From a virus, in the IMG/VR virus record IMGVR_UViG_3300032132_000754, positions 121,178-185,177 of that record: DNA of 64,000 nt. One strand, 5' to 3'. The translations under genes were made by a program, and so were the position numbers. The first letter of the stretch is position 1. The number at the start of each line of letters is the position of its first letter. The notes below the pieces were generated by a model. That model did no database searches. It had not been told where the DNA came from and saw only the letters and a program-made list of their open reading frames with translations. Below are positions 13,363 to 64,000 of this stretch, in pieces.

Positions 13363-13441
13363 AATAACTCCGCCGTATGTTTTGTCTATTTATCTTTGAG
13401 CCCTAAACATTATGGCATACCGTAGAAGAAGTAGCATATCG

Positions 13442-13450
13442 TATATAAAA
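13442..13450 (+). promoter_or_regulatory. Candidate TATATAAAA promoter element
   Basis: TATATAAAA lies 22 nt before the adenosine deaminase ATG. Similar TATATAAG boxes precede the genes at 40977 and 42670. The resemblance to a T4-type late promoter is suggestive only. Confidence 0.3.
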
Positions 13451-13471
13451 CACAACAGCCAGGGGCCACAA

Positions 13472-40670: not shown

Positions 40671-40947
40671 TTATGAAATTCTCAAGGGCTAAATTTATTT
40701 TATCAAAACATTGCGGGTCAGCTATGCGAGCAAGCTCTACCTTAGGACCTTTGTTTACATAGATATATACGAAGCTATCATCATGTGTCAATTGAATCGA
40801 TTGCTTAGGATTTTCCCAAATTGGACGATCAAAAGTCCTAATGATAATAGTTCTATCTCTTTTAACACGAACCAAATCATGTTTCTGGAGCCAGTAAGAC
40901 ATACCAAACTGTTTAAAGTGCTCTTCTAACAAATCAAGAAACGTCAC
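40645..40947 (-). CDS. DPxxF-family small protein
   Basis: From a GTG at 40947 the product is 100 residues: helix MTFLDLLEEHFKQFGMSYW, strands (RTIIIRTFDRP, FVYIYVNKG) and RIADPQCFDKINLALENFI. An upstream TTG at 40962 is possible, but the GTG fits the family N-terminus better. Confidence 0.65.
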   Translation of the reverse strand: MTFLDLLEEHFKQFGMSYWLQKHDLVRVKRDRTIIIRTFDRPIWENPKQSIQLTHDDSFVYIYVNKGPKVELARIADPQCFDKINLALENFINGLKVTAH

Positions 40948-40948
40948 G

Positions 40949-40956
40949 TATATAAG
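40949..40956 (+). promoter_or_regulatory. Candidate TATATAAG promoter element
   Basis: TATATAAG lies 21 nt before the ATG at 40977 in a short divergent gap. Related boxes occur before 13472 and 42670. No -35 match is claimed. Confidence 0.28.
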
Positions 40957-40976
40957 ATACAAGATAAAAATAATAT

Positions 40977-43041: not shown

Positions 43042-46002
43042 ATGTCTTTAATATTAATCGCTAAAGATTCAATAACTGGACAACCTACTGAAGCCAGCGA
43101 TGATAATCCGATAACTATTCCATTAATTGGAGATGGTGGGGTTACTAAATTTGATGGAACGTTAGAAGCTATTAGCCCGATGACTATTCGTGGTCAGGCT
43201 GGCCAAGGAGCTAACAGCATCGGCGGTGTTATAAACGTAATTGGCGGCATCGGTACCGGAACAGCTACAGGCGGTGCCGTAAACATCTTAGCAGGTACTA
43301 CTGAATCAGGTCGTGGAGGGCAATTAGCTTTAGTAGGCGGCGACAGCGGCACCAACGATCATGCCGGTATTGTTATCATTCAGGGAGGCCAAGGTAATGC
43401 CGCAGGCTTCACTAGCGGCGGCGTACTTATCAATTCTGGTGTTGCGCATTCTGATGGTAGCTCTGGAAGTGTCCTTATTAGCACTAAGAGCGGAGGGGGC
43501 ACATCAGGAAACTCAGGCAACGTCACAATTGATATTGGAGCAGCCCCAGGCGGCACACGTGGAACCCTTATCATCGGGCAGACATTACCTAAAATCACTT
43601 TCACTGGCGGTATTGGTAGTTCAATCAGTGTACTTGGCGTTGGCGTTAATAGTGAAATGTTTGGCGCTGGTGCTACTGGAATTGGCGCTGGTGCTACTGT
43701 TGTTGGCAATGGTGCTACTGGAAATGGAGGAGGTGGGGTTGCAGTAGGCAATAATGCAGCGTCTCTAAGCCCTGGCGGTATCGCAATTGGTACTTTAGCA
43801 ACAACTGGTGGACAAAGCAGTATCTCTATTGGTGGTGGCGGTACATTATCAGGGCACGATTATTCAATTTGTATCGGTGACTTTGCCGCATCTTCAGCTG
43901 CAAACCAATTGATTATTGGCAGCAGTTTTCACAAAATCTTCCAAATGTTTATTGGGGCAGGCGTATCAGCGGCAACCACAGCCAATATGAGCATTAATTC
44001 TACTTCTGGAACCGGAGTTTTTGACGGCTCAGATTTAGAAATTGCAGCCGGAATCGCCCTAGGTTCTGGCGCAGATGGAGAACTAATTCTATCGGCCAGA
44101 GGCGGTTCAATCAATATAAATGAAGTTGGACAAGAGTCTCTCTCTACAACAGATTTTGGCGCTACTTCAATCATTGGTGCTCTAAATGAGTTGGCTTCAA
44201 TATCAATGGCTGGTGTTGGCACTCTTGCTGCCACTCTTGCTGTTGGAAACACTACTAACGGAACTAACATTGTTCTATCCGCGCTCGATAATATCTCATC
44301 GACAAATGGCACTAACCAGCTATCATTAACAGCTGGTGTCGTGAATGTTCATCGTGAAACTGTCGCCAGTAACAACGTCGCCATGCAAATAATCAAAACC
44401 GCTAACAATACTGTTAGCGGCGTTGTTAATGTTATACAAATCCAAGCCGCATCCTCTTCTGGTCTTCCTACTGCCGGGTTTGGATCTTCAATAGATTTCC
44501 TACTCGAAAGAGGATCTGGTGGTGGTAATAACCTTGCTGGTAGATTATCAGTTATTACAACTACTCCTCTAGGTGGTGGTAGCGCTGCATCCTATGTGGC
44601 TTTAAGTTCAATCGCTTCTGGTTCTGAGGTTGAATTTCTTAGAGCTGGTTATCTCGGAAATGTTTCCATTAGCGACGTGAATTTGGTTTGGGAAACGGAT
44701 AACACCGCCGACATTGGTGCTACTGGCGCAACACGACCGCGTACAATTTATGCTGGAACTAGTGTTGTGGTCCCTAGTGTTGTGGCCACAACTAGTGTTA
44801 CAATTGGCACTACTATAATCACACCAACTACTCTTACTAGCGTTTCAACATTTGCTATATTAGGAGGGCCTGGAACTGGCGGAGCCAGCCCTGGAGGCGA
44901 TGGTAAAGCTGTTTCTATTACTGGCGGTGCTGGCGGGCAATTAGGTGGTGCTGTTTCTCTTACGGGTGGTGCTGGTAATCAGAAGTCTGGCGGATCAGCA
45001 TTTGTCACAGCTGGTGCAAGTACAAACTTCATCGGTGGTCAAGCCAGACTTAAAGGTGGAATGGGTGCTACCTTTGGTGGCGCTGCTACTGTAGAAGGTG
45101 GAACTGGTGCCTCCAATGGTGGATCAGTACAAATGTCTGGTGGATCATGCCTTGGCACTGGCCCTGGTGGTAGCGCTGGAATGTTTGGCGGATCTGGCAG
45201 GCTTACCGGCGCTGGCGGATTAGTCCAAATCATTGCTGGAAATGGTGGTGCAAGCGGAAGTGATACTGGCGCAGGTGGTGCCGCAACTTTCAAAGCCGGA
45301 AACGGTGCAACAGGATCCGGCGCTGGCGGCGTTATGATGATTGCTTCTGGCAATGGATCTGTGGGCGGCGGTGCTGGAGGCGCTCTAAGCATTTTAGGTG
45401 GTGTTGCTGGTGGGTCTAATCAAGCCGGTGGAGCTATCACTGTCCAAGCTGGGCATTCAACTGGAACAGGTTTAGCAGGCGCAATTAGCATTCTAGGAGG
45501 AAACAACCAGAGCGGCACCGTAGCAGGTGGAACAGTCACTATTACTGGTGGCAACGCCTCATCCTCTTCAGCCGCAGCAGGTGGTGCAGTCGCTATCGCT
45601 GGTGGCGTTTCTGGTGATACCGATGCGAGTGTTGGTGGAGCAGTAACAATTTTTTCTGGTTCTAGTGCGGCTACTAACGGCGATAGTGGTGGTGTCACCA
45701 TTGACGCTGGCGCTCCTACAGGATCTGGAACTGCAGGCGATGTTGCTATCGCCGCCACAAATGCAGCGACTTTAGTTCTTGGTACAACTGGAACACTGAT
45801 GAGTTTCTTCGGAGTAACAGCAGTGTCACAACAAACTGATACTGTAGCGCTGACTGATAGTACAACAGGATCAGCAAACAATACCGTAGTGGACGTTGGA
45901 GCTAGCTTCAGCCAGGCTACACTAAATGATAACTTCGCGGACATAACCGCAAAGTATAACGCACTAAGAACAGTCCTCCGCAATCTAGGATTGATGGCTT
46001 AA
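43042..46002 (+). CDS. Glycine-rich fibre protein with YadA-like head repeats
   Basis: The 986-residue protein is built of Gly/Ala/Ser repeats. Residues about 193-295 resemble YadA-head repeats (GATGIGAGATVVGNGATGNG, GVAVGNNAASLSPGGIAIG), which form left-handed beta rolls. Residues about 610-930 are a GG-A-V-x-I-x-GG-x-G series. A middle segment, DNTADIGATGATRPRTIYAG, recurs in the next gene. The last 70 residues form the end module (NDNFADITAKYNALRTVLRN). It is most likely a long trimeric tail fibre. Confidence 0.78.
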   Translation: MSLILIAKDSITGQPTEASDDNPITIPLIGDGGVTKFDGTLEAISPMTIRGQAGQGANSIGGVINVIGGIGTGTATGGAVNILAGTTESGRGGQLALVGGDSGTNDHAGIVIIQGGQGNAAGFTSGGVLINSGVAHSDGSSGSVLISTKSGGGTSGNSGNVTIDIGAAPGGTRGTLIIGQTLPKITFTGGIGSSISVLGVGVNSEMFGAGATGIGAGATVVGNGATGNGGGGVAVGNNAASLSPGGIAIGTLATTGGQSSISIGGGGTLSGHDYSICIGDFAASSAANQLIIGSSFHKIFQMFIGAGVSAATTANMSINSTSGTGVFDGSDLEIAAGIALGSGADGELILSARGGSININEVGQESLSTTDFGATSIIGALNELASISMAGVGTLAATLAVGNTTNGTNIVLSALDNISSTNGTNQLSLTAGVVNVHRETVASNNVAMQIIKTANNTVSGVVNVIQIQAASSSGLPTAGFGSSIDFLLERGSGGGNNLAGRLSVITTTPLGGGSAASYVALSSIASGSEVEFLRAGYLGNVSISDVNLVWETDNTADIGATGATRPRTIYAGTSVVVPSVVATTSVTIGTTIITPTTLTSVSTFAILGGPGTGGASPGGDGKAVSITGGAGGQLGGAVSLTGGAGNQKSGGSAFVTAGASTNFIGGQARLKGGMGATFGGAATVEGGTGASNGGSVQMSGGSCLGTGPGGSAGMFGGSGRLTGAGGLVQIIAGNGGASGSDTGAGGAATFKAGNGATGSGAGGVMMIASGNGSVGGGAGGALSILGGVAGGSNQAGGAITVQAGHSTGTGLAGAISILGGNNQSGTVAGGTVTITGGNASSSSAAAGGAVAIAGGVSGDTDASVGGAVTIFSGSSAATNGDSGGVTIDAGAPTGSGTAGDVAIAATNAATLVLGTTGTLMSFFGVTAVSQQTDTVALTDSTTGSANNTVVDVGASFSQATLNDNFADITAKYNALRTVLRNLGLMA

Positions 46003-52540: not shown

Positions 52541-53923
52541 CTAAGACCAAAGAAGGTCCCTAACACCCTTCAAATCCTGGTCTACCAGAACTTCCCCATC
52601 CCTAAAGACTTCCCTAAGAAGATCCTTTTCATCAGCACCCATCGTACGCTCCTTAATAGTATCGTACCCAAAAGAATCCTTAATTAAAGCCAAACGACCC
52701 CTCTTAGAATCCTTAGTCGGATCACTAGCAGGACGCTTAAACACATCCCGCTCCTGACCATCAACCACAACACTACTGCACTTGAAAGCGAACCTCTGAG
52801 TATCGCGGTTCAACCTCTGTAGCAAACCGCCACCCATACCAAATGCGATGTTATCCAAAGACCAACCAGTCCGAAGCATAGCATCAACTACCTTCTTAAT
52901 AGTATCAGGCGTGCAACCATCACCCTGGATCACACGAACATGATCATCCAAGACCTTATAGCCCTTCTTATTCGTATAAGTACCAAACGCCTCACCAAGA
53001 CGATTTAGCACATTTAATACCATAGGGACAATCTCACCACTATCAGGCCGAACAACCAAAGTGCCATCCCTATTAAGAATTTTACCCTTTAAGTGTTCAC
53101 CCCAAAGTTCAGTGCAAGCCCTATCGATATCGAATGAGTCACTAACGCAAGCCACCAATCCAGTAGGGTACTGATCAAGCATATTCCTAAATGCTTCAAC
53201 CTCTCCATGTTCACCCCAACTAGTAATAGTACTATGCTCCGAAGCCGGGATCGAGAAACCAGCCATCTCAGCATTATAGTATTTCTTGCCAGTCGTTAAC
53301 GCAGCAATAGTATCCGTACCCATGAAGTTGCAAAGATGAGCCAATCCACCAATTCCAGCAGATTCTACAGAGGTTGAACCCCTAAAACCGAAATCGTGAA
53401 GTTTAAAAGGAAGACCATCAAGAGTATCACAAGATGTCTCCATTCCCTTTGCAATTAAATTTCTGACATAATTAGAAATTGTAGCAACAGTCGAAGGGTA
53501 CCAAACCATCACGAGAAGTGTCTCAAGATAATTCGGCAACCAATAGCACTCAGGGTCAGTATTCTCGATAGTCATCATGACATTAGACTCAGGAACAGCC
53601 ATACCCTCAGGCACAGCCTTGATGCTCACAGGTAGCTTGCCACCATGCTTCTCAAGAATATGTCTCCATCCGGCCTCATTGAAAGCTCCACCGACGCCAC
53701 CCATATGGGCATCAGAAAACTCCTTGGCCTCCTGGATGAATTCCTCAGTGACTACTACACCTTCAAGGTACTTCTTTAAGAAATACTGCAATCCGAAGAA
53801 CACAGTGTCCGGGTATTCAGACCCAACACGAGATTCGAAGTAAGAATAGACCTTACTAGTCCCAGGCGGGTACTGCTTGTAGTGAGAAAGTTTATATGAA
53901 TCAGTTAACAAAAGAATAGACAT
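52541..53923 (-). CDS. nadV: Nicotinamide phosphoribosyltransferase
   Basis: The 460-residue product makes NMN from nicotinamide and PRPP. It shows LTDSYKLSHYKQYPPG at the N-terminus, FGFRGSTS (R181), SIPASEHSTITSWG with the autophosphorylated H230, SDS at 261-263, RPDSG (292-296), VIQGDG and FGMGGGLLQRLNRD. All substrate-binding motifs of NAMPT are intact. AAAGGGGATTAAAATG gives a good Shine-Dalgarno. It is followed in function by the NMN adenylyltransferase gene immediately upstream on the same strand. Confidence 0.95.
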   Translation of the reverse strand: MSILLLTDSYKLSHYKQYPPGTSKVYSYFESRVGSEYPDTVFFGLQYFLKKYLEGVVVTEEFIQEAKEFSDAHMGGVGGAFNEAGWRHILEKHGGKLPVSIKAVPEGMAVPESNVMMTIENTDPECYWLPNYLETLLVMVWYPSTVATISNYVRNLIAKGMETSCDTLDGLPFKLHDFGFRGSTSVESAGIGGLAHLCNFMGTDTIAALTTGKKYYNAEMAGFSIPASEHSTITSWGEHGEVEAFRNMLDQYPTGLVACVSDSFDIDRACTELWGEHLKGKILNRDGTLVVRPDSGEIVPMVLNVLNRLGEAFGTYTNKKGYKVLDDHVRVIQGDGCTPDTIKKVVDAMLRTGWSLDNIAFGMGGGLLQRLNRDTQRFAFKCSSVVVDGQERDVFKRPASDPTKDSKRGRLALIKDSFGYDTIKERTMGADEKDLLREVFRDGEVLVDQDLKGVRDLLWS

Positions 53924-53955
53924 TTTAATCCCCTTTCTGAGTAGATTAAATATTG

Positions 53956-54861
53956 TTAGATTTTAAGGTGTTCTTTTACCATCCTCAAAATAGGTAGATG
54001 CTGTTCTAACAGCAAATTTTCATTGAAATTATCCAAATTGAACCATTTCGCCTCGAACAAATCATCACCAGCATGCAGCTTGCCCCAAGCATACTTAGCA
54101 ACAAATACCGTTGACATTAGACCATCAACCTGGCCTCTATAACGCCAATCGTCAATTTTAGTAGACCCAACGTACTCCCAATCGTTCAACTCAATGTCGC
54201 CAAGCTCCTCACGAGCCTCACGCTGAGCTACCCGAAGGAGACTCTTGTCGCCGGGATCAGCGAACCCACCAGGGAAACGCCACTTATCCTTAGGATCATT
54301 CTTCTTACGACCCAAAGCAATACTATTGCCCTGTAACACAGCAACATCAACAACGCTGTAAACCGCAGGATACTTATTGAACGCCGCGTAAATCACCCCA
54401 CGACGGAACTCTTCGGAGAGTCTAACATCATTAGAGCATTCTTTACGAACTTTAGTACCGGAAATGCGGATCTTATTACTTAATTCAACCGTCTGATGTT
54501 TCCCTTTGTAATGAGGGATAAAACCATCGCGGGACCCATAAAGCAATGGGGTGCCAATAGAAAACGTTTCATTAATTTTCGTATCGACGACTCTAGACCA
54601 ATCCTTGTCGCTAGGCATATCATGCAGCGGCAACACATTAATGTCAGGATAGGCTTCCTTGATCATTAACATTCTAGTGTGGTAATCTAAGGGATCATGT
54701 CTGGTGACAAGAATGCCAGGCGTACTACCCATTAGGATTAGTACTTTATCGTGCCTAGATTTAACAAAATCGATGAGTTCGATATGCCCATCGTGAAGGG
54801 TCGGAACCTGAAAACGTCCGACGATTACACCAATTGCGGTGTCTGGTAGCTTAACTTCCAC
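53956..54861 (-). CDS. nadM: NMN adenylyltransferase-Nudix bifunctional protein
   Basis: The 301-residue fusion has a nucleotidyltransferase half with GRFQVPTLHDGH (15-26) and ISGTKVR (133-139), which makes NAD+ from NMN and ATP. The Nudix half has a box at about 199-221 (GFADPGDKSLLRVAQREARE then ELG), where Asp replaces the first Glu of the canonical box. Such fusions are known as NMNAT/ADP-ribose pyrophosphatases. It starts at GTG with AAGGAG 6 nt upstream and is 32 nt from nadV. The pair is a two-step NAD+ salvage module of the NARP2 type. Confidence 0.93.
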   Translation of the reverse strand: MEVKLPDTAIGVIVGRFQVPTLHDGHIELIDFVKSRHDKVLILMGSTPGILVTRHDPLDYHTRMLMIKEAYPDINVLPLHDMPSDKDWSRVVDTKINETFSIGTPLLYGSRDGFIPHYKGKHQTVELSNKIRISGTKVRKECSNDVRLSEEFRRGVIYAAFNKYPAVYSVVDVAVLQGNSIALGRKKNDPKDKWRFPGGFADPGDKSLLRVAQREAREELGDIELNDWEYVGSTKIDDWRYRGQVDGLMSTVFVAKYAWGKLHAGDDLFEAKWFNLDNFNENLLLEQHLPILRMVKEHLKI

Positions 54862-54923: not shown

Positions 54924-55235
54924 TTAAATACGTCTGAGTAAATCCTCAAATTTTACAAAACACGTCGGATCAGCCAAGTCTACCTTATAATGCTTCACCA
55001 TCCCAGGATCAACAGGACAATAAATAGAAGCAACACGATTCATTAAACTGACAGATCTAATCAAGAGTTTAGCCTTCCAAAACTTAACATTGATAGAAAT
55101 GCCATCTTTAATATAGCGATATTCAAAACTAATATCACTTAAAAACCCGTTTTGGTTTTCCGCAGACCAACCGCATCTAATACAAGTTTCCTCGACATAA
55201 TCGCGAACGGCCATCATCCCGATATCAGGATTCAT
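54924..55235 (-). CDS. DPxxF-family small protein
   Basis: The 103-residue protein has YKVDLADPTCFVKFEDLLRR at its C-terminus. The N-terminal helix is AVRDYVEETCIRCGWSAE, with the G-W pair of the family. It overlaps the upstream member by 4 nt. It is the last gene of the operon before the NAD+ pair. Confidence 0.75.
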   Translation of the reverse strand: MNPDIGMMAVRDYVEETCIRCGWSAENQNGFLSDISFEYRYIKDGISINVKFWKAKLLIRSVSLMNRVASIYCPVDPGMVKHYKVDLADPTCFVKFEDLLRRI

Positions 55236-55570
55236 CTGCTAATTCCCATATAAAAATCAACGAATTTCTTCTTAGCATTGTTGATAGATTGAGGATCGTG
55301 TAAATCCTCTTCAAACACTATCTTCCTTGGAGGTAAATTTAAGGGACCCTCCGGACCAGCGTTAGTAAAATCTTCAATGCCGACCCACTCACACTTGAAA
55401 TTAGTGTGGCGAATGGTAAACTGATACCACGGTTTTTGATAATGCTTCTTAGTTCCAATTACACAATGATAAGTCTCACCGTCCATCTCGACTGAAAATT
55501 TGTTATCATCAAGTTCCAGATAAACAGGCCATTCGGTAAGAATTTGATTTAAAATTTTAGCATCAACCAT
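55232..55570 (-). CDS. DPxxF-family small protein
   Basis: The 112-residue protein has a helix AKILNQILTEWPVYLE, several Trp/Tyr-rich strands and EEDLHDPQSINNAKKKFVDF at the end. Its LTEW-type helix and HDPQSIN block pair it with the members at 55563 and 40055. It overlaps the upstream gene by 8 nt. Confidence 0.7.
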   Translation of the reverse strand: MVDAKILNQILTEWPVYLELDDNKFSVEMDGETYHCVIGTKKHYQKPWYQFTIRHTNFKCEWVGIEDFTNAGPEGPLNLPPRKIVFEEDLHDPQSINNAKKKFVDFYMGISR

Positions 55571-55883
55571 TAGATATCCTGTATGAACTCGACAAAAATG
55601 TATCTTTGGAGCTATTTATGCTTTCAGGATCCGTAAGATCAACTGAAAAAACATCAATTTGAAACGGAACAGACCAAGGATCAGTATGCTTATCAATCCA
55701 ACGACACCTAAAAGTAGTACCATGGATCACAAAAATGAATTTACCACTACTATATTTCAAGGTAGATTCAGCAAGACCAGGGCTATAAGGTTGTGTAACA
55801 ACACCCTGATGATCCACACCCCACTCCGTTAAAATCTCAAGGAGAATCGCACCAGAAGTGATTTTATCACTATTTGACGGCAT
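55563..55883 (-). CDS. DPxxF-family small protein
   Basis: From ATG 55883 the product is 106 residues, with ILLEILTEWGVDHQG then VFSVDLTDPESINSSKDTFL. A TTG at 55898 would add five residues. It overlaps the upstream member by 14 nt, a value repeated at four other junctions of this array. Confidence 0.7.
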   Translation of the reverse strand: MPSNSDKITSGAILLEILTEWGVDHQGVVTQPYSPGLAESTLKYSSGKFIFVIHGTTFRCRWIDKHTDPWSVPFQIDVFSVDLTDPESINSSKDTFLSSSYRISNG

Positions 55884-56304
55884 TCCAAATTTCTTCAAAA
55901 CAATCAGGAGAATAAGGATTAACTTTTAACTCATCCCATTCCCACTGCTCATATCCACGATAAGGAGGCTTACTGTCACCACGCCTAATATACTCACCAA
56001 GAAACACCTTCATACTAGTCTTAGATAAGTAAACCTGATAAACAATATCTTTAACTTTCCTAACATTAATATTAGTTTTATTGAAACCAAGTCTAACCCA
56101 ATTTAACGGATTGAAAGTAACCGCTTCCCGTTTCATAACAATGAAAGAACCCTCGTTGGAAACACCGAAAAAATGCGGAGGCCCTAATCTATCCTTGCAC
56201 CATTCGTACATCGCTCCACTAAACAAAACACACGGCATAATTGGTGAAAATCCTGGGTCTCTATAGACCGTCATATGGCGGTAAGGATGCGGAAGATTGT
56301 TCAT
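55870..56304 (-). CDS. DPxxF-family small protein (long N-terminus)
   Basis: The 144-residue protein has a longer N-terminal region (YRHMTVYRDPGFSPIMPCVL), then FSGAMYEWCKDRLGPPHFFG, and ends KVNPYSPDCFEEIWNAVK. Of the standard signature the P and the F remain. Function unknown. Confidence 0.68.
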   Translation of the reverse strand: MNNLPHPYRHMTVYRDPGFSPIMPCVLFSGAMYEWCKDRLGPPHFFGVSNEGSFIVMKREAVTFNPLNWVRLGFNKTNINVRKVKDIVYQVYLSKTSMKVFLGEYIRRGDSKPPYRGYEQWEWDELKVNPYSPDCFEEIWNAVK

Positions 56305-56313
56305 ACTTTACTT

Positions 56314-56502
56314 TTAACTCTCGCGAGATTGTTCCAAGTAAAGTTTTTTCTTTAAAACAATCTCCCCACTATAACACCACAAGCTGCGCGCTAGGCTAAA
56401 CCAAGGATCATGGTCCATGTTGTCTTCTGAACTTCTTAACCATATTTTAGTGTGAGTTCGGTTAGCTATTTTACTAATTGCGTTGATGGCCAATAGTTTC
56501 AT
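56314..56502 (-). CDS. Hypothetical small protein, possible family remnant
   Basis: The 62-residue frame from ATG 56502 contains MDHDPWFSLARSLWCYSGEI, which has a DP-x-F like signature followed by a basic helix. It may be a shortened DPxxF relative. It is divergent from the 56528 gene with 25 bp between starts. The longer frame to 56550 would overlap that gene. Confidence 0.5.
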   Translation of the reverse strand: MKLLAINAISKIANRTHTKIWLRSSEDNMDHDPWFSLARSLWCYSGEIVLKKKLYLEQSRES

Positions 56503-56527
56503 AAAAATTAGATACCAAACATAAAGT

Positions 56528-56743
56528 ATGAAACATCTCGAAGAAGTCAACCTAACATACTGTCAACACCTAAAATGGGCCTTCTGTAGCAGCTGGAAAT
56601 TGCTATACGCTGGGGTTGCCTGTCTAGTACACTCCCTACTACCATTCCTATTCCAAAACACCGCAAGCGGAATAGTCTACGACATCTACGACGAACTAGA
56701 AGAACGAAGACTTAAACTAAAAGATACCAAAAATCCCTGGTAA
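56528..56743 (+). CDS. DUF6356-like small membrane protein
   Basis: The 71-residue protein starts MKHLEEVNLTYCQHLKWAFC, followed by a hydrophobic stretch (LLYAGVACLVHSLLPFLF) and TASGIVYDIYDELEERR. This order (H-L-x-E...T-Y-x-Q-H...A, then AG-x-A-x-x-VH-x-L-x-P-F-x-F..TAS) recalls the DUF6356 group of small membrane proteins found in bacteria. I assign it from memory of the pattern only. It may be captured from a host. Confidence 0.6.
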   Translation: MKHLEEVNLTYCQHLKWAFCSSWKLLYAGVACLVHSLLPFLFQNTASGIVYDIYDELEERRLKLKDTKNPW

Positions 56744-56756
56744 CAATAAATAAAAT

Positions 56757-57512
56757 ATGAAACTTAGAATTCTAGGCGAATCAGATGAAGATCTAAGAGC
56801 GTTAAAACGATATGCTCAATCATCTGGTGATTGGCAAGCATTAGAAAAATATTATCACCAGGCTAATCGAGCTGGAATCGTAGAAGGTGAAGCTTATTTA
56901 AGCCAAGTCCGTGCATTTTGTGTAACAAGCTCTTCAACCAACGAATATGTCGTTAACGTTTTTGCAAACAGACATGCTGTGCGCGGTGTTGTAATGAATC
57001 AGATCACAGGCATCCGAGATCGCGATTTACATATGTTCGATATGGAAAATGGATCTGGACAACCCGAGGGAGTCTGTTTTGTTGATCGTAAGAATAAAAT
57101 CCCAGATGGTGGAACAATTCTTAATCCAAGATTGAGCCAATACACTAGAAACAACATGACTCCAGAACAAATACAAGAATTTATGGAGTCATGGGACTTA
57201 AAAATGGTGCCAGCTAAAGCTTGGTTTCTAACCATCTACCATTTTAGCTCTGTAGATAATGCTCGCGAGCATTACGGCAAATTATATAGTGGTACGCAAG
57301 CAAGAATCGCTTATAAAAAATTGGATGCTGGCACAATCGGTTTACAAGATAAAAACCCGCCAAACTTCCCAAAGAAATCGAACGGTTTCCCATACAAAAG
57401 CAATAGAGCTGCCCTCAAATGGGCATCAGAATACCTACCACCAACAACAGTAGGTTCATTACAAGGGCCAGAAGTAAAAGTTAACCGCCAATTCCTATTC
57501 TGCGCTATCTAA
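56757..57512 (+). CDS. Hypothetical protein with LRALxRxAxxSGDxxAL leader
   Basis: The 251-residue protein opens MKLRILGESDEDLRALKRYA then QSSGDWQALEKYYHQANRAG, a two-helix leader shared in outline with the 31828-32529 product. The body (about 45-251) is mixed alpha/beta and not recognised, with FVDRKNKIPDGGTILNPRLS and a C-terminal basic region. It is the only long plus-strand gene inside the minus-strand array. Confidence 0.62.
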   Translation: MKLRILGESDEDLRALKRYAQSSGDWQALEKYYHQANRAGIVEGEAYLSQVRAFCVTSSSTNEYVVNVFANRHAVRGVVMNQITGIRDRDLHMFDMENGSGQPEGVCFVDRKNKIPDGGTILNPRLSQYTRNNMTPEQIQEFMESWDLKMVPAKAWFLTIYHFSSVDNAREHYGKLYSGTQARIAYKKLDAGTIGLQDKNPPNFPKKSNGFPYKSNRAALKWASEYLPPTTVGSLQGPEVKVNRQFLFCAI

Positions 57513-57887
57513 CTTCTTACGACCAGCACGCTCACGCTTAATGTAATCAGCAAATTTCTCAGAACCCATGTCTTCTTCTAGAGAAATACCGCAGTACATG
57601 CAAATGCGATCCTCAGGCCCGTAAGGCTCTGAGACCCACTTCCACGGGTGCTGCCGACAATCAGAACAGGATGGGCACTGATAACCCTCCTCGCTAACCC
57701 ACTGGTGTTGGCACGATACACACTCCCAACGTGCCTTACAATTAGGATGCAAAAACGTGTGGATGACCTTATGGCCCATATAAGCCATCCTTGGAATAAG
57801 ACGATTCATCGCATCGTCTTCACTTTCGCCGGATTTAACAGCCTTCTCGACTTCATCCATAATGTTTTTCATAGCGTCTGGGTGCAT
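57495..57887 (-). CDS. Multi-zinc-ribbon protein
   Basis: The 130-residue protein has CVSCQHQW, YQCPSCSDCRQHPWKW and ICMYCGISLEED, giving eight or more cysteines arranged as two probable zinc ribbons, then a basic C-terminus. It is a candidate nucleic-acid or protein adaptor. It shares 1 nt with the upstream DPxxF gene, so it is co-translated with that family. Confidence 0.68.
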   Translation of the reverse strand: MHPDAMKNIMDEVEKAVKSGESEDDAMNRLIPRMAYMGHKVIHTFLHPNCKARWECVSCQHQWVSEEGYQCPSCSDCRQHPWKWVSEPYGPEDRICMYCGISLEEDMGSEKFADYIKRERAGRKKLDSAE

Positions 57888-58162
57888 TAGTATTCCTCCA
57901 TAATTCTGCGGTGTTCTCTAATAGCTTTATGCAACTTATCGAAAAATTCAGGATCACACAAATCACCTGTAAAAGCTCCTAAACCTTTAAGAGCGAACAG
58001 GGAAGTATGGACCTTACTTCCTCTGACAGTGATTTTCTCTTGCCTCAAAGGTCCAAGATCAATGACGATAAGCTGTTCACGTTTTTGAACATCAATATGG
58101 CTGCGAACGATTGTGCAACCTATTTCTCTAAGCCAATCCTCTAAGATTTCTATAGCGAGCAT
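57887..58162 (-). CDS. DPxxF-family small protein
   Basis: The 91-residue protein has helix LAIEILEDWLREIGCTIV, strands (KREQLIVIDLGPLRQEKITV) and FTGDLCDPEFFDKLHKAIRE at the end. It is one of the clearest members. Its leader follows the repeat-bearing gap at 58163-58300. Confidence 0.78.
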   Translation of the reverse strand: MLAIEILEDWLREIGCTIVRSHIDVQKREQLIVIDLGPLRQEKITVRGSKVHTSLFALKGLGAFTGDLCDPEFFDKLHKAIREHRRIMEEY

Positions 58163-58300
58163 ACTTTTAATATACTGGTGAGATTAAACGCGATACCCTT
58201 CGGAATAGGGGTGATGAACGCGATTTACACGTCGCATGTTACCGCGCGAAGCGCCTTTCGGGTACCCCCCTCTACCCCTCTCATGATGAACGCGAGCGAA
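58163..58300. promoter_or_regulatory. Non-coding gap with 12-nt repeats, probable regulatory region
   Basis: This 138-bp gap is the only sizeable break in the 57495-62127 minus-strand array and is richer in G+C than its flanks. TGATGAACGCGA occurs at 58212-58223 and 58284-58295, and again at 62554-62565. TTAAACGCGATACC at 58184 matches TTAAACGAGATACC at 62511. A GCGC-GAA-GCGC inverted repeat lies near 58244. It probably holds the promoter of the 57495-58162 genes and the 3' end of the genes upstream. Confidence 0.6.
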
Positions 58301-58597
58301 TCAGAGACCATGAACTTTAAAAGCACTAACTAACATCCACTTTAACTTATCGAAAAACAAAGGATCCACCATATTAAGACCATAGAACTTACCATCAATC
58401 TCAACACTAGACCCAAACCTGACCTTACTATCCTCATAAACCACCAGCTTAATATTGAAAGCTAAATTATCAAAATCAACAGGCCGTTTAGGTCTGACCG
58501 CCACCATATCAGTATCACCATAAGACGGCGTCTTAACCACCCACGCAGACCAACCCTGCTCCTCACACCACTGAATTAAAACATCGGAGGCCGTCAT
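58301..58597 (-). CDS. DPxxF-family small protein
   Basis: The 98-residue protein has ASDVLIQWCEEQGWSAWVV at the N-terminus and YGLNMVDPLFFDKLKWMLVS near the end. It is a textbook example of the family layout, with an acidic-to-neutral middle of about 45 residues. It overlaps the upstream member by 4 nt. Confidence 0.8.
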   Translation of the reverse strand: MTASDVLIQWCEEQGWSAWVVKTPSYGDTDMVAVRPKRPVDFDNLAFNIKLVVYEDSKVRFGSSVEIDGKFYGLNMVDPLFFDKLKWMLVSAFKVHGL

Positions 58598-58890
58598 TCC
58601 TTACCCAAATCCGCCAATGTCATGGGACCCAGTTTAATAATCGTGTAGAGCCTGTCGAAAAACTCAGGGCTATGTATATCCATAGGTAGGTAGCCGCCTT
58701 TAACCCGGCCATCAAATATCCACCCGACGAAAATCGTCGTGGACGGCCAAGACTTACCACCGAGAGTAATCACGAAGCGGCTCCCAGGGTGTGCTGGAGC
58801 TTCAAAAAACATAGTATCGACGCCTAGCTCCAAACAAGGCTCCCAACCCATCCCTTTAAACCACTCCCCAATCAGATCAAGGGGACCCAT
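58594..58890 (-). CDS. DPxxF-family small protein
   Basis: From ATG 58890 the 98-residue product has PLDLIGEWFKGMGWEPC and PMDIHSPEFFDRLYTIIKLG. An in-frame earlier start at 58914 would lie within the upstream gene. The overlap with the upstream member is 14 nt. Confidence 0.78.
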   Translation of the reverse strand: MGPLDLIGEWFKGMGWEPCLELGVDTMFFEAPAHPGSRFVITLGGKSWPSTTIFVGWIFDGRVKGGYLPMDIHSPEFFDRLYTIIKLGPMTLADLGKE

Positions 58891-59176
58891 AAATGCCACG
58901 CTTATCCAACACAACCTTCAACTTATCAAAAGAATCAGGATCAGCCAAATCAATCTCATCAACAAAACCAATACTCAACGAACCATTCTTCATAGCAGGA
59001 GTATAAAGAATCTTAGTCCCCTCAATAGCAACTACAATATTCCGACCCTTAACAAAACCGGTGATTAACCACGTCTGATTCTGGACCTCCTCACCAGGCC
59101 CAAAATCCATAAACTTCAAACCATTCTCAACGCACCAAAAACGCAAAATATCAATTGTACGCAAGGAAGATCCCAT
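58877..59176 (-). CDS. DPxxF-family small protein
   Basis: The 99-residue protein has TIDILRFWCVENGLKFMDFG and DEIDLADPDSFDKLKVVLDK. A TTG at 59164 is an alternative start that would give a 14-nt instead of a 26-nt overlap with the upstream member. Confidence 0.77.
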   Translation of the reverse strand: MGSSLRTIDILRFWCVENGLKFMDFGPGEEVQNQTWLITGFVKGRNIVVAIEGTKILYTPAMKNGSLSIGFVDEIDLADPDSFDKLKVVLDKRGIYGSP

Positions 59177-59441
59177 TTAAAAACTGCCCTAACTTATTAA
59201 AACACTCAGGATCTGTCAGATACAGACAATCCACAGGCGTATTGCGATGATGAACTTCAACCCTAGTAGGATTACCAGGCCCACCCATACACAAAATCAC
59301 AGTCTGAAAATCATTGCTATGATTCCCATGCGTCTTAACCTCAATTCTACTAGGTCTAGAAGCCGGTCTAAAACGCCTCTGCATATGGCACTTCCAGCCA
59401 TTCTCACGCAACCACTCCAACATTAACTCATGTACTTCCAT
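59151..59441 (-). CDS. DPxxF-family small protein
   Basis: The 96-residue protein has VHELMLEWLRENGWKCHMQ then a basic stretch (RRFRPASRPSRIEVKTHG) and CLYLTDPECFNKLGQFLNGI. The basic middle distinguishes it from acidic members. Confidence 0.78.
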   Translation of the reverse strand: MEVHELMLEWLRENGWKCHMQRRFRPASRPSRIEVKTHGNHSNDFQTVILCMGGPGNPTRVEVHHRNTPVDCLYLTDPECFNKLGQFLNGIFLAYN

Positions 59442-59724
59442 CTAACAATCTCTTCAAAGCCACCTCTAGCTTAACAAAAAACTCCGGATCATAAACATTA
59501 AAATAATCCCACTTACGAAAACGCTTATCAATCTCATCAACCATAGTATCTTCCCTATTCGTAGCAGGAAGCTTAACCCTAGTCCTAAAAATACCAACTA
59601 CAGTATTATACCTAGAATTTTCCCTCTTAACACTAATCCCATACCACGCAATGCCGCCATCGATCTCATAAAGAGTCCAACCACGCTCCTCACACCACTC
59701 ATGCAGCAGACAGACTAAATCCAT
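59428..59724 (-). CDS. DPxxF-family small protein
   Basis: The 98-residue protein has LVCLLHEWCEERGWTLYEID and YFNVYDPEFFVKLEVALKRL. It overlaps its neighbours by 14 and 26 nt. Confidence 0.78.
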   Translation of the reverse strand: MDLVCLLHEWCEERGWTLYEIDGGIAWYGISVKRENSRYNTVVGIFRTRVKLPATNREDTMVDEIDKRFRKWDYFNVYDPEFFVKLEVALKRLLDGST

Positions 59725-59968
59725 AATTCAACAACGCCATCCTCAAATCATTAAAACACTTAGGGTCAGTAGCTTGAAATCTATGGCTGCGAACGTTTCC
59801 TTGACCCCACAACACTATTTCGTCCTTATAAACAGAAATAGCAACTCTATGCATGTCACAATGAAACTCCCCAGGGCGATGCTCCCCAGGGCCATCATCA
59901 AGTTCGTAGAAATGTTCATCCCAATCTTGCTCAATCAACCACTCTTTAAACAAATCATTTAAAGTCAT
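59699..59968 (-). CDS. DPxxF-family small protein
   Basis: The 89-residue protein has LNDLFKEWLIEQDWDEHFYE, an acidic/His linker and HRFQATDPKCFNDLRMALLN. It is one of the shortest full-layout members. Confidence 0.76.
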   Translation of the reverse strand: MTLNDLFKEWLIEQDWDEHFYELDDGPGEHRPGEFHCDMHRVAISVYKDEIVLWGQGNVRSHRFQATDPKCFNDLRMALLNYGFSLSAA

Positions 59969-60270
59969 CCACGGCCCAAGTATACCTCAAGGTCATTAAA
60001 AAACGTAGGACTAGCCATATCAAACTCATGGCCATCCACAGTAGCCTTAGACCCCATAATAAAAATCCTATGCGCCAAAGCCGCCTCTAAACACAACCCC
60101 ATCTGCTCCAAAATATTACCATTAGGATCAGCGTCAACCTTAGTTATCCTATCATAATTAAAAGTAATACGATGCATCAACCCCAGACCGAAACTAATAG
60201 ACTCCCTATGAATCTGAACGGGTTCATACTTATCCTTAATCCAATCATATAAAATATCAGCCCCGTTCAC
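59965..60270 (-). CDS. DPxxF-family small protein
   Basis: From GTG 60270 the product is 101 residues, starting NGADILYDWIKDKYEPV as expected for the family, and ending EFDMASPTFFNDLEVYLGRG. An ATG at 60303 would add 11 residues lying inside the upstream gene. A 14-nt overlap supports the GTG. Confidence 0.72.
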   Translation of the reverse strand: MNGADILYDWIKDKYEPVQIHRESISFGLGLMHRITFNYDRITKVDADPNGNILEQMGLCLEAALAHRIFIMGSKATVDGHEFDMASPTFFNDLEVYLGRG

Positions 60271-60595
60271 CCAACACCCGCTTAAGTAACCCATCAAGTT
60301 CAATAAAGAACCCAGGGTCCGTCAAGTTCAACACCTTAGACTTATGGTCGACAATATTCAGATTTAAATCCAAATCATACGTCTTAACCCTACGCGCCTT
60401 ATGGCCAATCTCCCACGTCACCAAAACAGAAGTAGGACTATTCTTACCAGCCTTAATAGTCACCTTAACCTTAGGGAAACCCCACCCCAAATTCTTAACA
60501 GTAATAAAACGATACCGACCCGGCTCAACAGGCGGCAAATGATGCTTCCACCCATTCTCCACCAACCACTCAGCTATCAAATTAATGCCAGTCAT
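60257..60595 (-). CDS. DPxxF-family small protein
   Basis: The 112-residue protein has INLIAEWLVENGWKHHLPP and VLNLTDPGFFIELDGLLKRV. The middle has long basic strands (RYRFITVKNLGWGFPKVKVT). It overlaps the upstream member by 4 nt. Confidence 0.77.
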   Translation of the reverse strand: MTGINLIAEWLVENGWKHHLPPVEPGRYRFITVKNLGWGFPKVKVTIKAGKNSPTSVLVTWEIGHKARRVKTYDLDLNLNIVDHKSKVLNLTDPGFFIELDGLLKRVLGERG

Positions 60596-60960
60596 AAAGC
60601 GCCTTTATCATAACTATAAATCTGATTCTTAAGAATGACATCCCACTCATACCGAATACGTTCCCCAAGCTTATCAAAAAAATGCGGTTCCGCCAAATTC
60701 CAGATAACCGGGATTTTCGTCTTAATTAAAACATCCAACGGCACTAATTTAGAACCATCATTAGAATCAAGCAACGGGTCCTCCCCAGTACCAAAAACCA
60801 CCAACCTAACCTGCTTACGACCAGAAGTTAACAACCCCTCAACAGACTTATCCCAAATTTCAATCCACATACCATGAGAACTAATATAGCTCTTATCCAT
60901 ACGACGAACCCCGAAACCCTGGTCTTCCGCCCATTGCATAATTAGATCAACTGGGGACAT
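60592..60960 (-). CDS. DPxxF-family small protein
   Basis: From ATG 60960 the product is 122 residues: SPVDLIMQWAEDQGFGVRRM and IWNLAEPHFFDKLGERIRYE, with AEP for DP and a 15-residue C-terminal extension. A GTG at 60969 is a weaker alternative start. Confidence 0.74.
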   Translation of the reverse strand: MSPVDLIMQWAEDQGFGVRRMDKSYISSHGMWIEIWDKSVEGLLTSGRKQVRLVVFGTGEDPLLDSNDGSKLVPLDVLIKTKIPVIWNLAEPHFFDKLGERIRYEWDVILKNQIYSYDKGAL

Positions 60961-60961
60961 A

Positions 60962-61207
60962 TTAACCACGCCAAGCCTCCACAGCTAAACCAAGGTCATC
61001 AAAAAACTTAGGGTCATACAAATTACCATTAAATTGAGTGCCATTATAAGCCCTAAAATTACTAAAAACATTTAAAGAAGAATCCGCCACGAAGTAGTAC
61101 TGCATATTCCCCAAATGCAACTCAACCGTATGGGACCCCTCCTTAACTACGTTACCGTCTCCGAAAACCTCACCCAAGTACTGAGCAACACCATCAATCG
61201 CTTCCAT
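60962..61207 (-). CDS. DPxxF-family small protein
   Basis: From ATG 61207 (GGAGG 6 nt upstream, the best Shine-Dalgarno in the array) the product is 81 residues, with AIDGVAQYLGEVFG at the start and FNGNLYDPKFFDDLGLAVEA at the end. The frame continues to 61225 but that region lies within the upstream gene. Confidence 0.75.
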   Translation of the reverse strand: MEAIDGVAQYLGEVFGDGNVVKEGSHTVELHLGNMQYYFVADSSLNVFSNFRAYNGTQFNGNLYDPKFFDDLGLAVEAWRG

Positions 61208-61430
61208 CTTTATCCTCCGGAACACACTTAGGACACTTACAATCCTTCAACGCCTCAACAACCTCAGCCATATGCTTAGCAACCCCATCAAACAAATCAG
61301 CAATATTCTTAGCCGACTCCTCAGGAGTCCCAACAAGATCAGCAGAAATCAACTTCTTAGCAGGCTTCCTAATTAAAGGCCAGACAAAACTCTTAAATTC
61401 CGGTATATCAGAATCTTTTGGCAAACTCAT
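61194..61430 (-). CDS. Hypothetical helical protein with CxCPKC tail
   Basis: The 78-residue protein is helical (AKNIADLFDGVAKHMAEVVE) and ends KDCKCPKCVPEDKDGSD with a possible partial zinc site. It is not a DPxxF member but is embedded in that array with 14-nt and 4-nt overlaps. Confidence 0.62.
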   Translation of the reverse strand: MSLPKDSDIPEFKSFVWPLIRKPAKKLISADLVGTPEESAKNIADLFDGVAKHMAEVVEALKDCKCPKCVPEDKDGSD

Positions 61431-61780
61431 ATATTCAACCCTTCCTCAATATGCGCATGGTACCAAGCGCCATTCCTACTCTTTTCCCCCCACACCCAAG
61501 AAAACAATTCATCGAAAAAGTCAGGAGACGTCATCCGCAAATCAATGACAGAACTACCCTGCAAATCATCGCTACGAACCCTAATTCTAACCCAATCCCC
61601 CTGAATATATAAAACCCGATGAGAATCCCCATCCGACTCACACCGCTTTAAAGCAATAACCCAACTAGTAAGCCTAGAACCACCACCAGGCCGAGAATTC
61701 ACAACAAACTTCCCCAACTTCATCTCATGAATCCACTCATGAATAATAGCCTGCGGCGTCAACCTCGCTTCAAGTGTCAT
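61427..61780 (-). CDS. DPxxF-family small protein
   Basis: The 117-residue protein has TPQAIIHEWIHEMKLGKFVV, basic strands, and SVIDLRMTSPDFFDELFSWV at about 78-97, followed by a 20-residue tail. TSPDFF replaces DPxFF. Confidence 0.74.
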   Translation of the reverse strand: MTLEARLTPQAIIHEWIHEMKLGKFVVNSRPGGGSRLTSWVIALKRCESDGDSHRVLYIQGDWVRIRVRSDDLQGSSVIDLRMTSPDFFDELFSWVWGEKSRNGAWYHAHIEEGLNI

Positions 61781-61789
61781 CCTATCTCC

Positions 61790-62056
61790 CTAATGCTTAA
61801 ATAAACTCTTTGGTGGAGATTTAATTGGCGGCAACGGTTTAGGCCAATTAGGTGGCATCTTCAAATGAGAAAAATCCGGGGGACCCAAACAACTCTCCCC
61901 GCACGACCAACCCTTATAAGTCTTCCTAAACCCATGTTTAGTAATAGCCGCCCAAAAATCATCCTCAACCCCATCCGCCCAATCCTCATCAGCCGCCCGA
62001 ACTGGACCATTGATCCTCTTCGAACACGAGCTACACTTAACCTGTAAAGCATACAT
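61790..62056 (-). CDS. Small Cys-rich protein with proline tail
   Basis: The 88-residue protein has VKCSSCSKR near the start and WSCGESCLGPPDF later, making a four-Cys zinc site around a central acidic helix (ADEDWADGVEDDFWAAITKH), and ends in a Pro/Lys-rich tail. It starts the array together with the 62056-62127 peptide (TGATG overlap). Not recognised. Confidence 0.62.
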   Translation of the reverse strand: MYALQVKCSSCSKRINGPVRAADEDWADGVEDDFWAAITKHGFRKTYKGWSCGESCLGPPDFSHLKMPPNWPKPLPPIKSPPKSLFKH

Positions 62057-62127
62057 CACTGACTATCCGCGAAAACCATCAGGACAATAAAAACAACGAA
62101 AAGTAGCAGGCAGAAGTCAGCAAACAT
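62056..62127 (-). CDS. Possible 23-residue membrane peptide
   Basis: An ATG at 62125-62127 opens a 23-codon frame whose product is almost wholly hydrophobic (FCLLLFVVFIVLMVFA core), consistent with one membrane span. Its stop overlaps the ATG of the Cys-rich gene (TGATG), typical of coupled genes here. It may be a leader or micro-membrane protein. Coding capacity is not proven. Confidence 0.4.
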   Translation of the reverse strand: MFADFCLLLFVVFIVLMVFADSQ

Positions 62128-62228
62128 GTGTTTCTCACTACCTCTAAAATACCCCGTGTCGTGAGACGTTAATTATATTTAGAGAAATAACCCAATAAGA
62201 AACATAATATCCATCGTATGTTAAGATA

Positions 62229-62486
62229 ATGGAAACTTGGAAATTGTTAGAAGAATGGGTTTTAGAAAAACGCCCTAAAACCACTTTAATCCATTATAGA
62301 AAGGCTCGCAACAGCGCAGAAGAAAACATTTTAGAGATAGGGAGATACGACGTCGTTATTGACAAAACCGCAGTAAAAATCGCCCTAAGAGTAGACCAAA
62401 ATTTCAGCAAAATAAAATGGGTAAATCTAGATCTCTGCGACCCTGACTTTTTTGCCAAATTCGGCAAAAGCTTAAATGTCCTATAA
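62229..62486 (+). CDS. DPxxF-family small protein on the plus strand
   Basis: The 85-residue protein has ETWKLLEEWVLEKRPKTTLI and VNLDLCDPDFFAKFGKSLNV, so it is a clear member, but on the strand opposite the array and divergent from it. The upstream gap of about 100 bp (62128-62228) is AT-rich, contains TTAATTATATTTAGAG, and likely holds promoters for both directions. Confidence 0.76.
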   Translation: METWKLLEEWVLEKRPKTTLIHYRKARNSAEENILEIGRYDVVIDKTAVKIALRVDQNFSKIKWVNLDLCDPDFFAKFGKSLNVL

Positions 62487-62684
62487 CGCGTCTTTCCACG
62501 TAAGAGCACCTTAAACGAGATACCTCTCCGGGCCATATTAGAATTTAACTGAGTGATGAACGCGACCATAGTGTTGGAATGAACCTCGATAGAGAGACTA
62601 GGTCGCTCGGGGACCCACATAGCCCAAATTCTCACATGGCCGTACTCCCCACATAGCCGTCCCGGAGCCCCCGGAGCGGGGGGG
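62487..62684. promoter_or_regulatory. Composition switch with repeat boxes upstream of the first cassette
   Basis: No gene is evident between 62487 and the promoter at 62685. TTAAACGAGATACC (62511) and TGATGAACGCGA (62554) repeat elements of the 58163-58300 gap. CCACATAGCC occurs at 62615 and 62649, with a variant TCACATGGCC at 62632. Base composition rises steeply from about 62600 onward. Confidence 0.6.
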
Positions 62685-62713
62685 TTGCGTCTGCGGCCAC
62701 CCGCTGATACAAT
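62685..62713 (+). promoter_or_regulatory. Sigma-70-type promoter of cassette 1
   Basis: TTGCGT at 62685-62690 and TACAAT at 62708-62713 are separated by exactly 17 bp and precede the 62809 gene. The same arrangement with the same surrounding sequence (GGGGTTGCG, TGCGGCCA) recurs at 63434-63462 before the paralogous gene. Confidence 0.72.
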
Positions 62714-62808
62714 GGGAGCGCCGGAGGGGGGCGCGGGCGCAACGGAGCGCGCGCAACCCACCCGAGGCGCAACCCCAACGGCCACAACCGAGTGGCACGG
62801 AGACCCCG

Positions 62809-63234
62809 ATGTTTGAGAAGCTAAACCTGACCGCAGCCCCGAAGACCTCTCGCGCGACCGCCTTCGCGTTCCCGCTCACGATCGCCTTCGTCCAGACGCT
62901 CACGGACGAGGGCTACCGCCTCTCGTACACGGCCTTGCGCAACGCGGCGCACGACCTGGGCGAGGACGCGAGCAACCAGAAGCCCGCACAGCGCGGAGCC
63001 TTCCTGGCGAAGAAGCTGCCGGGACACCTCCAGCCGAGCGTGTCGCGGAAGAACGGCACGTACCACGAGAAGGTCCTGACGGCCTGGACGGTCGACGTCG
63101 ACCGTGCGGAGCTGGCCACGCGACCGGTCGTCACGAAGGACGACCTCGACGGTTTCCTGAGCGTCTGGCAGGAGGCGACCGAGGCGGAGGCCGAGTGTGG
63201 CGAGGACGAGGACGAGACCGTCAGCGAGGGCTAG
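62809..63234 (+). CDS. GC-rich cassette protein, copy 1
   Basis: The 141-residue protein (MFEKLNLTAAPKTS start) is a paralogue of the 63555-63953 product. It has a helical core with YTALRNAAHDLGED and RGAFLAKKLPGHLQPSVSRK, the latter basic and possibly DNA-binding, then VVTKDDLDGFLSVWQEATEA and an acidic tail. GGAG lies 6 nt before the ATG. Codon use is strongly G/C at third positions, unlike the rest of the window. No family is recognised. Confidence 0.75.
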   Translation: MFEKLNLTAAPKTSRATAFAFPLTIAFVQTLTDEGYRLSYTALRNAAHDLGEDASNQKPAQRGAFLAKKLPGHLQPSVSRKNGTYHEKVLTAWTVDVDRAELATRPVVTKDDLDGFLSVWQEATEAEAECGEDEDETVSEG

Positions 63235-63246
63235 CCAGCCCGGCGA

Positions 63247-63293
63247 GCGGGGAGCCGGAAGGCTCCCCGCGAGCCACTCCCGCAAGGGGGTGG
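63247..63293 (+). terminator. Two consecutive GNRA-type hairpins after cassette 1
   Basis: GCGGGGAGCC-GGAA-GGCTCCCCGC (63247-63270) is a perfect 10-bp stem with a GGAA loop. CCACTCCC-GCAA-GGGGGTGG (63274-63293) is an 8-bp stem with one G-T pair and a GCAA loop. Neither is followed by a T run. They may end or stabilise the transcript. Confidence 0.65.
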
Positions 63294-63298
63294 CAAAG

Positions 63299-63420
63299 CC
63301 ACATAGCCGACCCACATAGCCGACGGGGAAACCACATAGCCGGTGCGAGGGGGAGCGGAACGCGGAGGGCGAGAGAGACCTTCCTATCTGAAGAGAACGT
63401 TGAAGAGTAACCACATAGCC
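63299..63420. repeat. CCACATAGCC iterated boxes (four copies)
   Basis: Exact CCACATAGCC(G) boxes lie at 63299, 63312, 63332 and 63411, just upstream of the second cassette promoter. Two exact copies and one variant occupy the corresponding place before cassette 1. They are candidate operators. The rest of the 63235-63433 gap (about 200 bp) holds only the two hairpins and no gene that I can support. Confidence 0.75.
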
Positions 63421-63433
63421 GGAGGTGGGGGGG

Positions 63434-63462
63434 TTGCGCGTGCGGCCATGCGCTGTTACAAT
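63434..63462 (+). promoter_or_regulatory. Sigma-70-type promoter of cassette 2
   Basis: TTGCGC at 63434-63439 and TACAAT at 63457-63462 with a 17-bp spacer repeat the cassette 1 promoter. A CCACATAGCC box ends 13 bp before the -35 element. Confidence 0.72.
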
Positions 63463-63554
63463 GGGGGTTCGGAGGGGGGGCGGACGCCGAGCGGCGCGAG
63501 CGACACCCTTCCGAGCAACCCCGAGTGGGCCGAGTGGCCCGAGGACCGATTACC

Positions 63555-63953
63555 ATGTTCGAAAAGATCAAGCTGACCGCGAAGACGACCGTGAAGACCT
63601 CCGACAAGGCCATGCCGAAGACGATCGCGTTCGTCCAGAAGCTCACCGAGGAGGGCTACCGGATCTCGTACACGGCGCTCCGGAACGCGGCGACGGAGCT
63701 GGGCGAGGACAACTCGCAGCAGAAGGCTCCGCAGAGGGGCGCGTACCTCGCCAACAAGCTGCCCGCCGACCTGCAGCCGAGTGTGACGCGGAAGAACGGC
63801 ACCTACCACGAGAAGGCGATCGCCAAGTGGACGGTGGAGGCTCCCGCCGACCTGGGCAGCCGACCGGTCGTGACGAAGGACTCCTTGGACGCCTTCCTGA
63901 GCGTCTGGCTGGAGGGCACCGCCGAGGCGAGCGACGAGGCGAGCGAGGGCTAG
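63555..63953 (+). CDS. GC-rich cassette protein, copy 2
   Basis: The 132-residue protein (MFEKIKLTAKTTVK start) is about two-thirds identical to copy 1, by eye, over most of its length: IAFVQKLTEEGYRISYTALR, LPADLQPSVTRKNGTYHEK and SRPVVTKDSLDAFLSVW. The acidic tail has diverged. The ATG at 63555 matches the copy 1 start; an in-frame ATG at 63525 is not conserved. Function unknown; conserved basic segments suggest nucleic-acid binding. Confidence 0.75.
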   Translation: MFEKIKLTAKTTVKTSDKAMPKTIAFVQKLTEEGYRISYTALRNAATELGEDNSQQKAPQRGAYLANKLPADLQPSVTRKNGTYHEKAIAKWTVEAPADLGSRPVVTKDSLDAFLSVWLEGTAEASDEASEG

Positions 63954-63965
63954 AGAACGGGGGGA

Positions 63966-63987
63966 GCGGGGGCCGAAAGGCCCCCGC
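63966..63987 (+). terminator. GAAA-loop hairpin after cassette 2
   Basis: GCGGGGGCC-GAAA-GGCCCCCGC forms a perfect 9-bp stem with a GNRA loop 13 nt after the stop codon, in the same position as the hairpin after cassette 1. Confidence 0.68.
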
Positions 63988-64000
63988 GACCTTCGGCTGA

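Follow-up and report, generated by a model that had tools for sequence, protein, structure and literature searches.

A large uncultivated phage carries, next to each other, a gene for nicotinamide phosphoribosyltransferase (NAMPT) and a gene for an NMN adenylyltransferase fused to a Nudix domain (NMNAT-Nudix). Going by the sequences, we favor the reading that the two form a working NAD+ salvage unit that keeps NAD+ up during infection, most plausibly against NADase defense. The pathway is known; new are the clade to which the NMNAT-Nudix protein belongs, the mainly uncultivated range of that clade, and the substrate loop of the protein. An earlier note on this DNA had read the locus as NARP2, which is said to be phage NAD+ reconstitution pathway 2 of Osterman et al. 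in 2024 and is reportedly related to the NAD+ salvage genes of KVP40.

Genomic locus and gene pair

The window analyzed here, to which positions refer, is the last 64 kb (64,000 nucleotides) of a 185,177-base virus record in IMG/VR (G000), probably a fragment. The pair and its features were as follows.

52541-53923, minus strand: NAMPT, 460 aa (Pfam, NCBIfam, and PDB matches; catalytic motifs)
52802-52834, minus strand: NAMPT residues 364-374, GGGLLQRLNRD, the counterpart of the selectivity-clamp helix of Namat, lacking the adenine-binding aromatics (compared with PMC12774641)
53956-54861, minus strand: NMNAT-Nudix fusion, 301 aa, of a divergent short clade (profiles, motifs, tree, model)
54427-54837, minus strand: NMNAT (HIGH nucleotidyltransferase) domain, residues about 9-145, with HDGH at 23-26 and SGTKVR at 134-139 (Pfam, motifs, alignment)
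53959-54369, minus strand: Nudix domain, residues about 165-301, with E215, E218, and E219 near-invariant in 88 relatives (Pfam, structure, alignment)
54199-54270, minus strand: Nudix box variant GGFADPGDKSLLRVAQREAREELG, with one extra residue and the first E changed to D (motif check, alignment)

Both open reading frames lie on the minus strand, and NAMPT follows 32 bp downstream of the NMNAT-Nudix gene. The frames are uninterrupted and each has a ribosome-binding site; the NMNAT-Nudix gene starts with GTG, ahead of which stands AAGGAG. Counts of promoters and terminators were not above those of shuffles. The reading frames, profile matches, and motif check thus bore out the earlier description of adjacent NAMPT and NMNAT-Nudix genes with intact catalytic motifs.

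NAMPT matched the Pfam families NAMPT_N (E 3.9e-40) and NAPRTase (E 1.1e-52), scored 618 bits against NCBIfam NF006629 (cut-off 405), and was matched over nearly its full length by human-type NAMPT structures (E about 1e-146 to 1e-149). The context of the catalytic histidine, IPASEHSTIT (EHSTIT), and VRPDSG were both present. A homologous enzyme, Namat of NARP1, uses ADP-ribose pyrophosphate and has a clamp, GSX-phi-X-phi-X-phi-TRD, whose aromatics stack on adenine (PMC12774641). The corresponding GGGLLQRLNRD carries the G of the clamp mutant F392G/Y396K and an R at the position of its K (PMC12774641). The lack of the Namat clamp argues that NAMPT should use PRPP, and a PRPP-type enzyme with the catalytic His and RPDSG but no adenine clamp would be NARP2-like rather than NARP1; we rejected a NARP1 identity on this motif.

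The NMNAT-Nudix protein matched NUDIX (3.2e-14) and CTP_transf_like (2.9e-6), both above the Pfam cut-offs, and scored 52.3 bits against the NCBIfam equivalog for bifunctional NadM (PRK05379), short of its cut-off of 397. The HxGH and SxTxxR motifs of NMN adenylyltransferases occurred as HDGH and SGTKVR. The Nudix REXXEE motif was intact as REAREE, confirming the Nudix domain that the earlier note had assigned to the NMNAT, and was preceded by a loop one residue longer than GX5EX7; this extra residue and the D for the first E were common among relatives. Among 88 non-identical members, E215 and E218 were each kept in 87 and E219 in all, as were R139, W88, and D81, with H26 kept in 86. Position 23 was H in 80 members and T in 8, while the glycine of HxGH (G25) was kept in only 51, with alanine in 30. 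The near-invariance of the glutamates argues that the Nudix half is under constraint as a hydrolase, and we consider this half probably active.

The AlphaFold model of the protein (pLDDT 94.9) had as its best full-length PDB matches 2r5w, 2qjt, and 2qjo, which are bifunctional NMNAT/ADP-ribose pyrophosphatases. The window protein shares with bifunctional NadM the fusion of NMNAT to Nudix and the overall fold; the large overall root mean square deviation from these three structures suggests that the domains of the model are oriented differently.

Distribution and phylogeny of the NMNAT-Nudix clade

A tblastn search of 50,697 phage records gave six matches, of which five belonged to the clade of the window protein and the sixth (L011) grouped with canonical NadM in the tree. 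Of the five, one is an isolate (Tunturi_5) and the others are genomes of uncultured huge phages; canonical NadM/NatV, by comparison, occurred in 453 phage records. IMG/VR contigs reversed this proportion, with at least 130 members of the window clade, about twice the canonical ones (at least 65); both counts came from pattern-limited scans, so that they are minimum figures and vary with the patterns chosen. Isolated phages rarely carry the NMNAT-Nudix branch, which is frequent among environmental phages. The cases of phage NAD+ salvage in the literature cited here are isolated phages, from which this clade is largely absent.

The clade also occurred in eight bacterial metagenome-assembled genomes (MAGs) from Kapaibacterium, Ignavibacteria, Thermochlorobacteriaceae, and Cytophagales. 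Of 395 genomes sampled from one phylum, 9 carried it, including some of these eight. In the phylogenetic tree, for which bacterial and phage copies were sampled by patterns, 88 window-clade proteins split from the canonical outgroup with support of 100/100, and the eight bacterial proteins formed one group within the phage diversity. A second small bacterial group, placed elsewhere in the phage-rich tree, appeared only in a quick tree with more genomes. The closest relative was a 395-kb record (G003), in which a CoaBC-like protein, assigned by eye, is encoded directly upstream of the NMNAT-Nudix gene (L158:1331-2656).

NAMPT accompanied the clade in 83 of 89 non-identical loci, leaving a few relatives without a recognizable NAMPT; 59 of the 83 NAMPT genes lay within -60 to +200 bp downstream of the NMNAT-Nudix gene, with a median gap of 20 bp. 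Distances among the NMNAT-Nudix proteins correlated with those among the NAMPTs (r 0.55, 74 loci), and none of 999 permutations exceeded 0.17. A pair that moves as a unit would produce such a correlation, although shared phage descent would also do so. Upstream of the pair, the bacterial loci encode a Nudix protein, and the one tested (L037) was NrtR by Pfam; an NrtR gene was also found in a huge-phage locus (L010), whereas the window has no NrtR or Nudix protein upstream of its pair. In a few relatives, a NADAR gene followed the pair, the one tested (L077) being NADAR by Pfam. In four loci (L083, L093, L104, and L122), NAMPT was split by what by eye was a homing endonuclease-like gene; the one tested had no Pfam match.

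Comparison with known systems

Phage salvage through NadV and NadM has been described as an answer to NADases (PMC9503650), and phage NAMPT with an NMNAT-Nudix protein is likewise on record (PMC7824862), so that pairs of NAMPT and NMNAT in other phages were, as the earlier note held, already established. NARP1 and NARP2 are presented as NADase counter-defense in PMC11984713, and PMC12028318 places NARP2 proteins in vibriophage particles.

The window shares with NARP2 a clamp-less NAMPT and an NMNAT gene in a phage, with identical predicted reactions, but its NMNAT-Nudix comes from a separate clade. In KVP40, no NMNAT is annotated beside nadV, whereas the two genes adjoin in the window. The bifunctional NadM/NatV proteins (2qjo, 2qjt, 2r5w, and LUCX_150 of LucasX) are likewise NMNAT-Nudix fusions and, in LucasX, are encoded just upstream of NAMPT. 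The window protein differs from them in its length (301 aa versus 341-363), a shorter linker, two extra residues before HxGH, another Nudix loop, and a score far below the NadM cut-offs. NARP1 (Adps and Namat) has an identical purpose and a NAMPT homologue in Namat, but the window NAMPT is without the clamp motif. The nrtR / NMNAT-Nudix / NAMPT loci of Bacteroidota and Ignavibacteriota MAGs share the clade and the downstream NAMPT; the Nudix protein that precedes them, identified as NrtR in L037, has no counterpart upstream of the window's pair.

Substrate of the Nudix domain

The loop after the Nudix box, YxGSxxIDDWRYRxExDxIxT, was conserved in the clade, and the canonical NadM motif RSxRGRTITH, present in LucasX and B23 within FDxxxRSxRGRTITH, was absent from it. 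No ADP-ribose or NADH marker reviewed in PMC5389931 was found in the Nudix half, which had neither a SQPWPFPQS-like motif nor a proline at the ADP-ribose position; none of the published downstream markers fit, and a substrate assignment from them was abandoned. Taken alone, the Nudix domain matched a range of Nudix structures with similar scores; NrtR with bound ADP-ribose (Z 17.0) tied with NudC with bound NAD (Z 16.8). The likeliest target of the Nudix half is a pyrophosphate of the ADP-ribose type; as the loop differs from that of canonical NadM, ADP-ribose itself is a candidate substrate.

These data also leave some room, albeit rather little, for a Nudix half that acts on another substrate, such as NAD(H), NAD-capped RNA, ApnA, or a cyclic or phosphorylated ADP-ribose signal, in which case the protein would rebuild NAD+ and also regulate NAD+ or destroy a signal. 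The replaced loop, the missing markers, and the tie between NrtR and NudC all speak for this; nevertheless, the sole full-length structural matches are NMNAT/ADP-ribose pyrophosphatases, and sequence is an unreliable guide to Nudix specificity. A bolder version, which we regard as improbable, would give the clade a novel Nudix specificity set by the YxGSxxIDDWRYR loop, so that the protein that rebuilds NAD+ would also cleave an immune signal of the ADP-ribose type or a product of NADases and serve as the main NAD+ counter-defense of environmental large phages. If the loop does change the substrate, it would provide a testable link between NAD+ rebuilding and the clearing of ADP-ribose products.

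Proposed function of the pair

In the salvage unit that we favor, family membership and motifs predict that NAMPT would convert nicotinamide and PRPP into NMN and that the NMNAT half would convert NMN and ATP into NAD+, while the Nudix half may split ADP-ribose released by NADases into AMP and ribose 5-phosphate. The NAD+ level would thereby be upheld in infection, most plausibly when host defense destroys NAD+. By analogy with NARP2 as reported elsewhere, the pair probably helps against NADase defenses.

A purely metabolic role, in which the pair feeds NAD+ to the heavy biosynthesis of the phage with no special part in anti-defense, is less likely; the same genes would fit it. The record holds many genes of purine and nucleotide metabolism (PurZ/PurA-like, PurB, adenosine deaminase, IMPDH-like, thymidylate synthase, and DHFR), and the neighborhoods of the bacterial relatives resemble regulated NAD salvage loci. 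Against a metabolic role alone stand the activity of NARP2 of other phages against NADases, as given in PMC11984713 and PMC12028318, and the frequency of NADAR (13) and Macro (7) among the 35 records with the pair, the only records counted; the two roles are, moreover, compatible with each other. A pathway left incomplete by an inactive NAMPT or NMNAT-Nudix gene is very improbable for this phage. Relatives do show altered NMNAT-Nudix motifs (HEGQ in L010, HDVH in L007, and RKFMDE in L009) and aberrant NAMPTs (L007, L054, and L073), but the motifs of the window are intact, its frames uninterrupted, and its ribosome-binding sites present.

The macro-domain protein that the earlier note had placed in this genome was not recovered: the profiles PF01661 (Macro, at E <= 0.001), PF08719, and PF10021 had no match in the 185-kb record, a probable fragment in which neither NADAR nor microbial PARG genes were found. 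The NARP2-type reading accordingly stands as to gene content, motifs, and the NARP2-like state of the clamp, and loses the macro-domain protein. Because the 395-kb relative contains Macro, NADAR, and PARG, a macro gene could sit in the missing part of the record.

Small-protein array upstream of the pair

The array of small proteins reported beside the pair proved to be a genuine family of diverged, mostly tandem paralogues. Seventeen of them, from 54924 to 62486, share a head, LxEWxxExGW, and a tail, LxDPxFFxKL; in leave-one-out comparisons, 16 of the 17 beat 200 shuffles of themselves, the exception being the one at 55232. Iterated search raised the family to 22 members across the record, including five dispersed ones. 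The members in the window are listed below.

54924-56304, minus strand: four paralogues adjoining the pair on its upstream side, 54924-55235, 55232-55570, 55563-55898, and 55870-56304 (leave-one-out, iterated search)
57887-61780, minus strand: twelve paralogues, 57887-58162, 58301-58597, 58594-58914, 58877-59176, 59151-59441, 59428-59724, 59699-59968, 59965-60303, 60257-60595, 60592-60969, 60962-61225, and 61427-61780 (leave-one-out, iterated search)
62229-62486, plus strand: one paralogue on the opposite strand (leave-one-out)
40055-40962, minus strand: three dispersed members, 40055-40396, 40380-40670, and 40645-40962 (iterated search)
29906-30232, plus strand: one dispersed member (iterated search)

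An AlphaFold model of an array protein (pLDDT 83) showed five strands with a helix at either end. Foldseek gave best E values of 0.11 (PDB) and 0.055 (viral models), and the best Z of a second look was 7.5; we assigned no fold because all structural matches were in the range of common arrangements. Two members searched against viral contigs had no relatives there, and clear members were absent from the 34 other records tested, with weak ones in the 395-kb relative (G003), so that the family is nearly private to this record among those tested. In G003, one diverged member lay about 7 kb from the NAD pair; at another locus (L003), the array was not near the pair. Position alone links the array to the NAD+ pair, and an anti-defense role is a guess from that position.

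Other features of the record

A PurZ/PurA-like protein (L032:5193-6296; about 44,793-45,896 of the record) scored 223 bits against NF038379, short of the cut-off of 300, and has GSCGKG in place of the PurA motif GDEGKG. It is accompanied by PurB (window 30229-31593), adenosine deaminase (window 13412-14458), and an IMPDH-like gene (L034:6213-7364), a set with which a 2-aminoadenine (Z) genome is possible; G003 has a PurZ-like gene too. Two further Nudix proteins are encoded in the record, at L032:2461-2997 and L035:17406-17813, the second assigned from the tally and its sequence. At 62530-64000 of the window, which runs to the contig end, G+C rises abruptly from 39% to 60-70%. This segment, possibly a chimeric contig end, holds two similar genes and repeats of CCACATAGCC that are absent from the rest of the record.
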